Below, in pieces: positions 10,936 to 14,285 of a DNA stretch of 64,000 bases; within the stretch, counting starts at the first letter, position 1; each line of letters starts with the position of its first letter. Source of the stretch: Amycolatopsis sp. 195334CR (GTDB taxonomy: Bacteria; Actinomycetota; Actinomycetes; Mycobacteriales; Pseudonocardiaceae); assembly GCF_017309385.1 (NCBI RefSeq), contig NZ_JAFJMJ010000001.1, forward strand, positions 3,906,001 through 3,970,000, read 5' to 3'. Under the pieces are notes generated by a model that saw only the letters and a list, made by a program, of their open reading frames with translations, was not told the origin of the DNA and did no database searches. The position numbers and the translations under genes were made by a program.

Positions 10936-12330
10936 ATGGACCTGCGCTCGAGGAGGTGGGGCAGGGCGCTGGTGCTGGTGGTCGTCCTGCTCGCCGGCCT
11001 GTTCACCGCTGCCCCCGCGACCGCGGCCGGGCGGCAGACCCACACCGGGGTGATCGGCGGTGCGGCCTTCCGGGTGGAGACCCCGGAGCGCTGGAACGGC
11101 ACGCTCGTGCTGTACAGCCACGCCTACTTCAGCGACGGGCTGCCGATCCCGCCGGAGGTCTGGCTGGCGAACCGCAAGGAAACCGAGAACTGGTTGCTGG
11201 CCAACGGGTACGCGCTGGCCGCGTCCGACTACGATGGCCGGTTCGGGTTCGCCGTGGAACCGGCGTTGCGCGACCAGGTGGCGGTGCTGGACTGGTTCGA
11301 GCGCAACGTCGGCAAGCCGCGGCGGACCGTCGCGAGTGGAATGTCGATGGGTGGCGGCATCGCGGTGCTGCTGGCCGAGCGGAACCCGCGGCGGATCTCC
11401 GGGGTGGTGGCGACCTGCGCGGACATCGACCACCTGGCGCCGTACAACATGTCGCTGGACGTGACCTTCGCGATCCGCACGCTGCTGGCGCCCGGTGAGG
11501 ACATCGACCTGGTGCTCGCGGACGACCCGGCGGCCAGCACGCAGGCGCTGCTGGCGGCGGTCGAACGCGCACTGTCCACTCCGGAGGGTCGCGCGCGGCT
11601 CACCCTGGCCGGTGCCTTCGGCAACCTGCCGCCGTGGAAGCACGCGCACCACGCGCCGCCGGTCGAGCTGGTGGAGCGGATCAAGCAGCAGGCGGGCTGG
11701 GCGCAGAGCTCGTCCTCGGCGCTGGGGCCCGCGGGGCGCGCCGACCTGGAACGCCGGGCGGGCGGGAATCCGGCCTGGAACGCAGGCGTCGACTACGGAC
11801 GGCAGCTGGCGGCTTCGAGCCAGCGGGGCCTGGTGGAGGAGGCGTACCGGGCGGCGGGTCTCGACCTGGGGGCGGATCTGGCGCGCCTCGCGGTCGAGCC
11901 GCGCATCGCGCCGGACGCGTCGGCCGTCGGGTACATGTACCGGTACGCCATTCCGCGGGGGATCACGCCCGCGCCGGTGCTGACCCTGCACAACACCGGG
12001 GACGGCGGGGCTTCGACGGACCAGGAGCAGTGGTACGCGGCGCAGGTCGCCCGGAGCGGTGATCCGGACCGGGTGCGCCAGGTCTTTTCGGCGCGGGGCA
12101 ACCACTGCGCGTTCAGCGGGGCCGAGGAGATCGTGAGCCTGCGGACGATGTTCGACCGGGTGGAGACGGGGCGCTGGCCGGACACCTCGCCCGCCGCGTT
12201 GAACACGGCGGCGGCGGCTTTCGGGCCGGAGTACCACGTGGTGACGAACTTCGGTGACTTCGCGGATGCTGTGCTGGCGCCGTCGTTCGTGGAGCACGCG
12301 CCGGCTCGGTTGCAGCGTCCGTCACGCTGA
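10936..12330 (+). CDS. Secreted alpha/beta hydrolase
   Basis: A 464-residue exported protein. An Arg-rich N-terminus and a hydrophobic core (ALVLVVVLLAGLFTAAPATAA) form a signal peptide with probable cleavage after ATAA. The nucleophile elbow is SGMSMGGG (about residue 137), with a later acid/His region near NTGDGGASTDQE and RGNHCAF. It resembles tannase/DUF6351-like secreted esterases in layout, but the substrate is not evident. The ATG at 10936 is chosen because longer in-frame ORF sequence runs into the SRPBCC gene; GAGGACGGAG lies upstream. A hairpin follows the stop. Confidence 0.8.
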   Translation: MDLRSRRWGRALVLVVVLLAGLFTAAPATAAGRQTHTGVIGGAAFRVETPERWNGTLVLYSHAYFSDGLPIPPEVWLANRKETENWLLANGYALAASDYDGRFGFAVEPALRDQVAVLDWFERNVGKPRRTVASGMSMGGGIAVLLAERNPRRISGVVATCADIDHLAPYNMSLDVTFAIRTLLAPGEDIDLVLADDPAASTQALLAAVERALSTPEGRARLTLAGAFGNLPPWKHAHHAPPVELVERIKQQAGWAQSSSSALGPAGRADLERRAGGNPAWNAGVDYGRQLAASSQRGLVEEAYRAAGLDLGADLARLAVEPRIAPDASAVGYMYRYAIPRGITPAPVLTLHNTGDGGASTDQEQWYAAQVARSGDPDRVRQVFSARGNHCAFSGAEEIVSLRTMFDRVETGRWPDTSPAALNTAAAAFGPEYHVVTNFGDFADAVLAPSFVEHAPARLQRPSR

Positions 12331-12342
12331 CCGCAAAACGAA

Positions 12343-12372
12343 TGTGGCTTTCCTGGCGTCAGGAAAGCCACA
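12343..12372. terminator. Stem-loop after the hydrolase gene, interrupted by the IS110 insertion
   Basis: TGTGGCTTTCCTG pairs perfectly with CAGGAAAGCCACA over 13 bp around a GCGT loop. It starts 12 bases after the hydrolase stop and would terminate transcription. The stem would continue with AACGAATG (12337-12344) if joined to CATTCGTT found beyond the insertion element at 13724-13731, so the original hairpin was longer and the element sits in its right arm. Confidence 0.7.
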
Positions 12373-12389
12373 GTGATGATGGTGTGTAT

Positions 12390-12570
12390 GGACGGGGGCT
12401 GCCCGGGGGCTTGGCCCGGAAAGCCACTGATGCCCTGGCCGGGGTTGTCTTGCGAATGATCTGCCGGTTCCGGGGTGGTCTCCGTTCGTGCACGTCACCA
12501 GGCCAGGGGATGTGACTTGATAGGAGCCTGTGCCACCAGGACACCCATCACTGTGCTGTCCACCCCTGCT
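12390..12570 (+). ncRNA. Candidate bridge RNA of the IS110 element
   Basis: The boundaries are approximate. Four short segments in order match the recombination sites. GGAAAGCCAC (12418-12427) repeats the left target half at 12362-12371. CGAATGAT (12453-12460) is complementary to the right junction ATCATTCG (13722-13729). ATAGGAGC (12520-12527) repeats the element's right end (13714-13721). CATCACTGTG (12546-12555) is complementary to the left junction CACAGTGATG (12369-12378). These fit left-target, right-target, left-donor and right-donor guides. CCCTGGCC (12433-12440) and GGCCAGGG (12501-12508) can form an 8-bp helix between the loops. Expression and fold are untested. Confidence 0.7.
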
Positions 12571-12625
12571 GGCCCGGTACGTGCCCTCCCTGACCACTGA
12601 ACACCACGGGACGGCAGAGACCAGG

Positions 12626-13708
12626 ATGACTGATCAGCACGGCATCGTCGACACTGCCCAGCACACCGCGGTGATCGCCGGGGTCGATACCCATAAAGAC
12701 ACCCACACCGCCGCCGCGCTCGATCCTGTCGGCCGGGTACTGGGCACGCACACCTTCCCGGCCACCACCGCCGGCTACACCGCGCTGGGCACCTGGCTGG
12801 CCGGGTTCGGCACGGTGTCCGCGGCCGGGGTGGAGGGCACCGGTTCCTACGGCGCGGGCCTGGCCCGCTACCTGGCCGGCGAGGGTGTCACGGTGGTGGA
12901 GGTCAACCAGCCCGACCGGCATGCCCGCCGCCGCAAGGGAAAGACCGACACCCAGGACGCGATCAACACCGCCCGCGCCGTCCTGGCCGGCCACGCTGAG
13001 GCCACCCCCAAAGCCGGCACCGGGCCCGCCGCCGCGATCACCGCCCTGCGCACCGCGCTGACCAGCGCGGTCAAATCCCGCACCGCCGCGCTCAACCAGC
13101 TCCACGCCCTGATCGTCACCGCCCCCGCCCCGCTACGCGAATCCTTGTCCGGCCTGACCGGCACAACCCTGATCAGGGCCTGCGCCCGGCTGCGCCCCGG
13201 CACCGACCTCACCAGCCCCGTCAACGCCACGAAAACCGCGCTCCGCCGCCTCGCCCGGCGCATCACCGACCTCACCACCGAGATCACCGACGCCAAAACC
13301 GACCTGAACACCCTGACCCGCCAGGTCCTGCCCGCCACCACCGCCGTGTTCGGCGTCGGCCCCGACACCGCCGCCCAGCTCCTGGCCACCGCCGGAGACA
13401 ACCCCGACCGCATCACCACCGAAGCCCAGTTCGCCCACCTCTGCGGCACCGCCCCGATCGACGCCAGCAGCGGCCGCAACAACCGCCACCGCCTCAACCG
13501 CGGCGGCGACCGCCACGCCAACGCCGCCCTCCACCGAATAGTGATCGTCCGCCTGCGCCACTGCCCCCGCACCCGCGCCTACCTCGAACGACGCACCCGC
13601 GAAGGCCTCCCCAAACGACACATCATCCGCTGCCTCAAACGCTACGTCGCACGCGAAATCCACCGAACCATCACCACAGACATAGCCAACCTCGCAACAA
13701 CCCCTTGA
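12626..13708 (+). CDS. IS110-family transposase (bridge-RNA-guided recombinase)
   Basis: A 360-residue protein. The N-terminal RuvC-like DEDD domain shows GVDTHKDTHTAA, GVEGTGSYG and KTDTQDAINTARAV; a coiled-coil-prone middle follows (SAVKSRTAALNQLHALIV, LTTEITDAKTDLNTLTRQ); the C-terminal Tnp_20 domain has VGPDTAAQLLATAGDNP, FAHLCGTAPIDASSGRNNRHRLNRGGDRHANAALH, where the Ser of DASSG corresponds to the catalytic serine region. Length is normal. The ATG at 12626 (CCAGG upstream) is preferred to an upstream in-frame extension, which would be translated from bridge-RNA sequence. The gene appears intact. Confidence 0.95.
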   Translation: MTDQHGIVDTAQHTAVIAGVDTHKDTHTAAALDPVGRVLGTHTFPATTAGYTALGTWLAGFGTVSAAGVEGTGSYGAGLARYLAGEGVTVVEVNQPDRHARRRKGKTDTQDAINTARAVLAGHAEATPKAGTGPAAAITALRTALTSAVKSRTAALNQLHALIVTAPAPLRESLSGLTGTTLIRACARLRPGTDLTSPVNATKTALRRLARRITDLTTEITDAKTDLNTLTRQVLPATTAVFGVGPDTAAQLLATAGDNPDRITTEAQFAHLCGTAPIDASSGRNNRHRLNRGGDRHANAALHRIVIVRLRHCPRTRAYLERRTREGLPKRHIIRCLKRYVAREIHRTITTDIANLATTP

Positions 13709-13742
13709 CCTCAATAGGAGCATCATTCGTTGCAGGTGAAGA

Positions 13743-14285
13743 TCAGTCCAGTAGGGTGGCGAGGCCGGTGTAGCCGCCGTCGGCCAGGCGTTTGCCCGAG
13801 ACGGCGAAGTAGTCCGGGGAGGATTCCACGCCGAGGCCCTCCACCATGCGGTTCATGAAGTTGAACAAAGCGCACACCAGCACCGCGTCGTGCAGGGCCT
13901 TTTCGTCCCAGCCGGCGGCGTACACGGCTTCCGCGTCCGCCTCGGTCATACGCGCGGGGGTGCGCGTCAGCTTGCCGACATAGGCCAGTACCGGCTTCAT
14001 CCGCGCCTCCACCGGGGAAGCGTCGAGATCGGTCAACGCCGCCACCAGCAGGCCTTCCGGCACGCCGAACTGCTCGGCCGTCACCGTGTGCACACCGTGG
14101 CAGTAATCGCAGCCGTTGAGCCCCGAAACATAGGCGGCGATCAGTTCCCGTTCACCCGCCGAAAACGGGGAAGGGGAGCGCATCACCAATTCGTGGTAAT
14201 CGAGCAGCGGGCGCGCGGTTTCCGGGAACTTCCGGAAAACCGAGAGCAGCGCCGAATCCGTGCCCAATGACTTCAGGAAAGACAT
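13743..14285 (-). CDS. Carboxymuconolactone decarboxylase / AhpD-like protein
   Basis: A 180-residue protein with the AhpD-fold active site CDYCHGVH (Cys-x2-Cys-x3-His, about residue 61), preceded by SAGERELIAAYVSGLNG and followed by long helices (ARMKPVLAYVGKLTRTPARMTEADAEAVYAAGW). It fits the peroxidase-related alkylhydroperoxidase subgroup, which works in antioxidant defence or as an accessory enzyme. The ATG at 14285 has AAGGA eight bases upstream; a longer ORF start would overlap the preceding gene. It is the last gene of a minus-strand run, next to the IS110 right end. Confidence 0.85.
   Translation of the reverse strand: MSFLKSLGTDSALLSVFRKFPETARPLLDYHELVMRSPSPFSAGERELIAAYVSGLNGCDYCHGVHTVTAEQFGVPEGLLVAALTDLDASPVEARMKPVLAYVGKLTRTPARMTEADAEAVYAAGWDEKALHDAVLVCALFNFMNRMVEGLGVESSPDYFAVSGKRLADGGYTGLATLLD

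Follow-up and report, generated by a model that had tools for sequence, protein, structure and literature searches.

A bridge RNA predicted in an IS110-family element, with handshake guides in both loops and a core of perhaps one base

The locus described here raises the question of where an insertion sequence that seems to carry its own guide RNA begins and ends, and with which bases of target and donor its guides would pair. In the preliminary description of the window (that is, the whole stretch of 64,000 nucleotides that was analysed), the element was assigned to IS110 and a bridge RNA was placed at its left end, with guides in the order left target, right target, left donor, right donor, and with core CA, left half GGAAAGC and right half TCATTCG. 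The comparison of copies, empty sites and relatives indicates that the element very probably belongs to the IS110 family of insertion sequences, that a bridge RNA can be predicted from its left end, and that its ends and core have to be placed elsewhere.

The ends were fixed within this genome (G000), which contains seven full copies of the element and two short partial matches (54 and 24 bases). All 7 of the 7 full copies have the same ends and are inserted at one identical point of one palindrome, reading ..GAAAGCCAC up to the left joint and AGGAGCATC^ATTC across the right one (^ marks the joint). The 15-mer of the corresponding empty site, GTGAAAGCCACATTC, is found 266 times in this genome, and its reversed control 0 times. 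Moreover, the same locus is empty in G054, where the flanks joined at C12371 and A13725 align gap-free at the joint (GAAAGCCGCATTCG in G054); in G027, the alignment reached the left gene only. From the seven copies, the empty 15-mers and the empty locus in G054, it follows that the element occupies 12372..13724 of the plus strand (1353 bp, with the shared C counted once, at the right end). That is to say, as judged from the aligned sequences, the two junctions share C (12371 on the left and 13724 on the right, both on the plus strand), or CA at most should the cut fall one base further on, and strands would be exchanged directly 3′ of C12371. The ends first proposed are off by two or three bases, and the core CA with its halves GGAAAGC and TCATTCG is contradicted by the copies and the empty sites, which place the joint at C12371/C13724.

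Between the window copy and each of the other six there are differences at 7 to 11 of the 1353 positions. At 12405, 12641, 12642, 12644 and 12645 the window copy stands alone against all six, and at 13684 and 13694 it disagrees with five of them; therefore, it is a slightly separate lineage. Its insertion hairpin lies between convergent ORFs, one ending at 12330 (plus strand) and the other at 13743 (minus strand); the hairpin may be their shared terminator, and the window copy seems to disrupt no gene. In another genome, a left end with its RNA (L012, G015:C78), 85% identical over 217 of 253 bases, runs on into other sequence where the recombinase would be, apparently a truncated remnant that still carries the guide RNA.

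The recombinase (360 aa, 12626..13708, plus strand, from the presumed start codon) contains the domains PF01548 (DEDD_Tnp_IS110, 2.4e-24) and PF02371 (Transposase_20, 8.3e-18), both above cut-off. The DEDD residues (D21, E70, D108 and D111) and the SSG motif (281-283) are invariant among 10 aligned sequences, which gives the arrangement of the IS110 family, namely a DEDD RuvC-like N-terminal domain and a Transposase_20 C-terminal domain with the conserved Ser. The protein also matches the PDB chains of IS621 (phmmer 2.5e-11) and ISCro4 (6.4e-11). With the same presumed start codon, the non-coding ends measure 254 bases on the left (12372-12625) vs 16 on the right (13709-13724), and the longer end upstream of the recombinase is that of the IS110 group, not of IS1111. 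Insertion is site-specific and without duplication beyond the core (7/7 copies and the clean empty locus), as in the IS110 family. An Rfam search of the window matched no family, and a single-protein scan of the genome contigs gave 70 pattern-matching stretches and 0 relatives. The assignment to IS110 with a left-end RNA is borne out by the protein family and by covariation of the RNA.

The predicted bridge RNA (12387..12578, plus strand) was drawn from an alignment of 22 relatives and their consensus fold, its start being taken from the circle-junction promoter and its end from the closing donor stem. Its first loop would contain the left target guide GAAAGCCAC (12419..12427), to which G12418 adds a match at the window copy only, the right target guide CGAATG (12453..12458), which covers the core C plus ATTCG here, shortened to ATTC in the other six copies, and a handshake guide AT (12459..12460), which after exchange would pair with the donor AT at 13722-13723, the last two bases before the core. 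In the second loop are the left donor guide ATAGGAGC (12520..12527), identical to 13714-13721, the right donor guide CATCACTG (12546..12553), which covers the core C plus AGTGATG, and a handshake guide TG (12554..12555), which after exchange would pair with the target CA at 12369-12370, again the last two bases before the core (all on the plus strand). The other six copies read GTGAAAGCCAC and ATTCAC where the window copy matches the guides; because of these differing flanks, the guide bases 12418 and 12453 find a match here only.

The four matches of the preliminary description were recovered as it had given them: 12418-12427 (GGAAAGCCAC) is the same as 12362-12371, 12453-12460 (CGAATGAT) is complementary to ATCATTCG at the right junction, 12520-12527 repeats the right end at 13714-13721, and 12546-12555 (CATCACTGTG) is complementary to CACAGTGATG at the left junction. 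The strings themselves were read correctly, but the last two bases of each 3′ guide are handshake guides. In IS621, each loop has two handshake bases that, once the strands have been exchanged, pair with the strand coming from the other DNA (PMC11208158). In finished junctions the handshake-paired bases adjoin the core; since the guides had been compared with finished junctions, the two post-exchange bases of each 3′ guide were misread as core or target. In 2000 dinucleotide shuffles of 12386-12575, the observed match length was reached 0 times for the left target, 32 times for the right junction, 11 times for the right end and 4 times for the left junction. The claim that four such matches exceed chance therefore stands for the set, which is strong, but the right-junction match taken alone is weak by these shuffles.

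In the consensus fold, the target-binding loop (12402..12475, plus strand) is closed by the stem 12402-12415/12463-12475 and has an inner hairpin at 12429-12433/12444-12449, so that the first part of the RNA runs stem, left target guide, hairpin, right target guide and stem. The donor-binding loop stem (12497..12578, plus strand) is formed by 12497-12501/12574-12578, 12506-12507/12566-12567 and 12511-12516/12558-12562, and the second part runs stem, left donor guide, right donor guide and stem. Across 22 element types the fold has 32 pairs, 22 of them with changes on both sides, and 90.7% of cells are paired vs 78.6% in shuffles; 0 of 500 shuffles reached any of five measures, although the pairing measures favour the structure because it was derived from the same alignment. 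Target-loop helices 1 and 2 are paired in 89.7% and 98.1% of cells, with both sides changed in 14 of 18 pairs. The consensus pairs of the 22 types gave no support for a donor hairpin between the donor guides, and the minimum-energy fold of the window RNA alone did not stand out from shuffles (z −0.78), 49 of 200 shuffled sequences folding as well. The helix 12433-12440/12501-12508, formerly thought to link the loops, is a perfect 8-bp match here, yet in the 22 relatives only 56.2% of its cells are paired vs 53.7% when shuffled, so that it is not supported. By complementarity and consensus fold, the predicted RNA has two internal loops with guides for both strands of target and donor, as a bridge RNA does.

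Relatives were collected by a genus search (20/80 genomes at 1e-40) and a family search (26/297 at 1e-85). From them, 22 element types were chosen by hand, on condition that the right end read exactly AGGAGCATC, that a TAGGAGC guide was present and that the left junction could be located via the right donor guide; rows excluded for missing one of these criteria include L065, L066, L087, L098, L102 and L116-L118. A held-out set was made of the best 80 of 476 loci from an alignment-based scan, mostly from Actinomycetota (Streptomyces, Micromonospora, Nocardiopsis and others). Of these 80, 33 passed the filter, the failures being due to an inexact right end (31), the guide (8) or the left junction (8), and the 33 were reduced to 25 types once near-duplicates had been removed.

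In both sets the guides follow the flanks of their own element. Among the 22 types, the right target guide matches 3.64 bases of its own flank vs 0.69 when permuted, and the left target guide 6.82 vs 3.93 (0/20000 permutations as high for either); in the 25 held-out types, the corresponding values are 2.36 vs 0.91 and 7.48 vs 5.06 bases (again 0/20000 for either). The donor-loop handshake agrees at 41/44 bases in the 22 types (permuted mean 1.20 per 2; 0/20000) and at 49/50 bases in the held-out types (6/20000 as high), one base being mismatched in 3/22 and 1/25 types. The right-target match extends over at most 2 bases beyond the core in 9/22 types and in 17/25 held-out types (two at contig ends). 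The permutation tests ignore the relatedness of element types. In a tree built from 47 recombinases, full agreement between target pair and donor-loop handshake is seen in 43; the target pair changes at least 12 times and the handshake at least 9 times, with only 4 independent pairs on well-supported branches, a number too small to reach significance. The covariation of guides with flanks in related copies, named at the outset as a check, and the guide order put forward there are thereby supported in the first and in the held-out set.

A test of the target-loop handshake was possible through those held-out right ends that read AGGAGCTTC. With near-duplicates included and with a landmark that did not depend on the letters of the guide, 42/80 held-out loci were scored, and the pairs were AT/AT in 33/33, TT/AA in 8/8 and GT/AT in 1/1 (G-U), that is, exactly complementary in 41/42; the other 38/80 had no right end (13), were ambiguous (11) or were without the guide landmark (9) or the target-loop landmark (5). 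Another scoring covered 35/80 loci, 34 exact and 1 G-U. As for the donor guides, they are nearly constant in this clade. In three held-out loci (L146, L171 and L176) the left donor guide has changed with the right end, TAGAAGC standing in both; the stretch at the guide landmark is unequal to the right end in 3/42 scored loci (L180, L202 and L203). Hence, among relatives, guides covary with both target and donor, as would be expected of a bridge RNA.

Since A follows C at both junctions in this genome, a core C and a core CA are indistinguishable within it, and the relatives have to decide. The left and right junctions read AAAGCCAC^AGTGATG and GCATC^TTTC in G020 (6 copies), GCCAC^TGTGAGG and GCATC^ATTGGG in G068 (4 copies), GGAC^AGTGA and GCATC^CG in G341 (6 copies), and TGAC^AGAGAGG and GCATC^TCATTC in G031 (2 copies). 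The joined (empty) strings have 18, 9, 3 and 6 hits, respectively, elsewhere in the collected DNA, counting overlapping loci and both palindrome strands, and 1 of the 3 for G341 lies within G341. The base after C differs between the junctions in 18/22 types and 20/24 held-out types, and the base before C is alike on both sides in 2/22 and 0/24. Instead of a shared dinucleotide core paired by all four guides, as in the IS621 type, only C is shared across the 22 and 24 element types, and the left donor guide of the window stops before the core. The simplest reading of the relatives is a cut directly after C.

An IS621-like core CA at 12371-12372/13724-13725, cut after A, was placed second because the relatives carry different bases after C. 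It would suit this genome equally well, and it would agree with IS621, whose cut follows a two-base core (PMC11208158); the differing relatives would then be products of mismatched-core repair. However, the relatives keep the donor's base at the left junction and the target's base at the right, so that repair would need the same direction in every one of them, and the same base stands on both sides in only 4/22 and 4/24 types, about the level of chance. This reading is thus rather unlikely, and a core CA two bases earlier on the left and three on the right is far more so. With the core at 12369-12370/13721-13722 and all matches formed before strand exchange (target GGAAAGC-CA-TCATTCG, donor ATAGGAG-CA-CAGTGATG), as originally supposed, all four strings do match, but the implied empty site GAAAGCCATCATTC has 0 occurrences in this genome vs 266 for the other form, its extra base is absent from the orthologous empty locus (G054), and the palindromes and transposase motifs at the relatives' sites fit joining at C; hardly any credence is left to it.

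Two other readings concern what the RNA does. It could be that the first loop alone matters, a short processed seekRNA picking the target and the protein recognising the element ends, as the IS110-type ISEc21 is reported to use a 74-nt seekRNA (PMC11187229), and the almost constant donor guides within the clade would agree with this. We regard it as improbable: bases of the donor loop vary together with the target and those of the target loop with the end of the donor, a changed right end is matched by its left donor guide in the three loci named above, and the donor stem is conserved with compensation. It is scarcely conceivable, moreover, that no guide RNA is involved and that the protein makes use of the matches as repeats in the DNA; the unremarkable single-sequence fold would be in keeping with such repeats, but the compensatory base pairs and the guide/flank covariation in the known bridge-RNA order speak against them.

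We lean, with modest confidence, towards a widespread actinobacterial IS110 clade in which target and donor share one base, the cut falls right after it, both loops carry a two-base handshake and small guide changes retarget the element to the REP palindromes of its hosts. In the same reading, target and donor would need almost no shared sequence because RNA, not DNA homology, stabilises the swapped strands. In the literature on IS110 and bridge RNA (open literature, largely without full texts), no one-base core and no actinobacterial handshakes were found.

With the outline taken from the IS621 work (PMC11208160, PMC11208158), the following course may be proposed. The excised circle would join ..ATAGGAGCATC to AGTGATG.. 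and thereby create a promoter, formed by a -35-like TTGACC read in the right end (13705..13710, plus strand) and, 17 bases away in the predicted circle, a -10-like GATGAT (12375..12380, plus strand), which would be in place only there and shares bases with the right donor sequence. The linear stretch 12300-13800 gave no promoter-like site; TTGAC is present in nearly every right end displayed, and L095 has TAGAC. The predicted circle junction ATAGGAGCATC^AGTGATG takes the place of ATAGGAG-CA-CAGTGATG, which was wrong. From this promoter a bridge RNA of roughly 190 nt would be transcribed, and in complex with the recombinase its first loop would bind the palindrome arm GAAAGCCAC^ATTC and its second loop the circle junction. 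The top strands would presumably be cut directly after C, the sole shared base, and swapped, whereupon the handshake bases would pair with the incoming strand (donor AT in the target loop, target CA in the donor loop), and resolution would leave a clean insertion without duplication. The element ends, empty site, guides, handshake covariation and RNA fold come from the comparison of sequences; transcription, the position of the strand cut and the order of the steps are our inference.

The palindrome itself is REP-like. The left part of the target hairpin (TGTGGCTTTCC..AGGAAAGCCAC) lies at 12344..12371, and the intact arm reads ..CCAC^ATTCG; the whole hairpin consists of 12344-12371 plus 13725-13729, and among the first 100 of the 266 arms many are paired, with starts 28 bases apart. 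The exact 15-mer arm is present in 6/80 genus genomes and absent from 74/80, with counts of 266 in G000, 147 in G027, 11 in G054 and 1 each in G003, G034 and G072; G027 has 147 arms, yet no copy of the element was found there in the genus searches. The relative in G020 is inserted in GTTGCGAAAGCCACTTTCGCAAC, and a single base separates its right target guide from that of the window (TTGCGAAAG in G020 vs TTGCGAATG in the window), the left guide GGAAAGCCAC being common to both.

Other relatives occupy other kinds of site. When joined at C, the sites of L064, L097, L103 and L123 read the in-frame transposase motif GDCYD^NAMMES, and those of L062 and L063 the in-frame transposase motif NGKV^ERYNR; we take the former transposase to be of IS3 type and the latter of IS481 type. 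Many actinobacterial relatives (L055, L061, L084, L130, L131, L154 and others) sit in ..CTGAC^, in some cases at an apparent TGA stop codon, and a gene-end guide may therefore be common. Targeting of REPs is known for the IS110 family (PMC1525189), as is natural retargeting, and targeting of IS3 has been published for ISEc21 (both PMC11187229).

The locus thus offers a bridge-RNA system from high-GC actinobacteria whose guides, ends and empty site are fixed by comparison, together with evidence from nature that distant relatives keep the IS621 handshake step on both loops. The corrected junction replaces the one that circle PCR would have used. If the core is truly one base, programmable bridge recombinases would be free of the shared-dinucleotide requirement.

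Among known systems, the IS621 papers (PMC11208160, PMC11208158) describe the same left-end RNA with two loops ordered LTG, RTG, LDG, RDG, two-base handshake guides just before the core, a REP target, a DEDD/Ser recombinase and a circle-junction promoter, the last being only predicted here. IS621 differs in having a CT core cut after T (PMC11208158), where the present element has a one-base C with exchange probably right after it, and a discontiguous right donor guide, which is contiguous here; the protein similarity is distant (phmmer 2.5e-11). Like ISEc21, some relatives of the present element lie in codons that apparently belong to IS3 transposases. ISEc21 with its seekRNA (PMC11187229) is likewise of IS110 type, with an upstream non-coding RNA in which the bottom-strand match precedes the top-strand match, with insertion without duplication and with natural retargeting; its RNA is a target-selecting one of 74 nt, whereas here the donor loop is supported as well. 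ISPa11, ISPpu9, ISPpu10 and ISRm19, also of the IS110 family, have 6/6, 7/7, 7/7 and 4/4 of their listed copies in REPs (PMC1525189), in other bacteria and other palindromes, and a guide RNA is not mentioned in the accessible part of that paper. IS117 is an actinobacterial family member that integrates from a circle; its crossover is given as AG or TAG (PMC2194683), not as a single C. The bridge-RNA kind is already known, and what is new consists of the ends as corrected here, a handshake in both loops and the probable core of one base.
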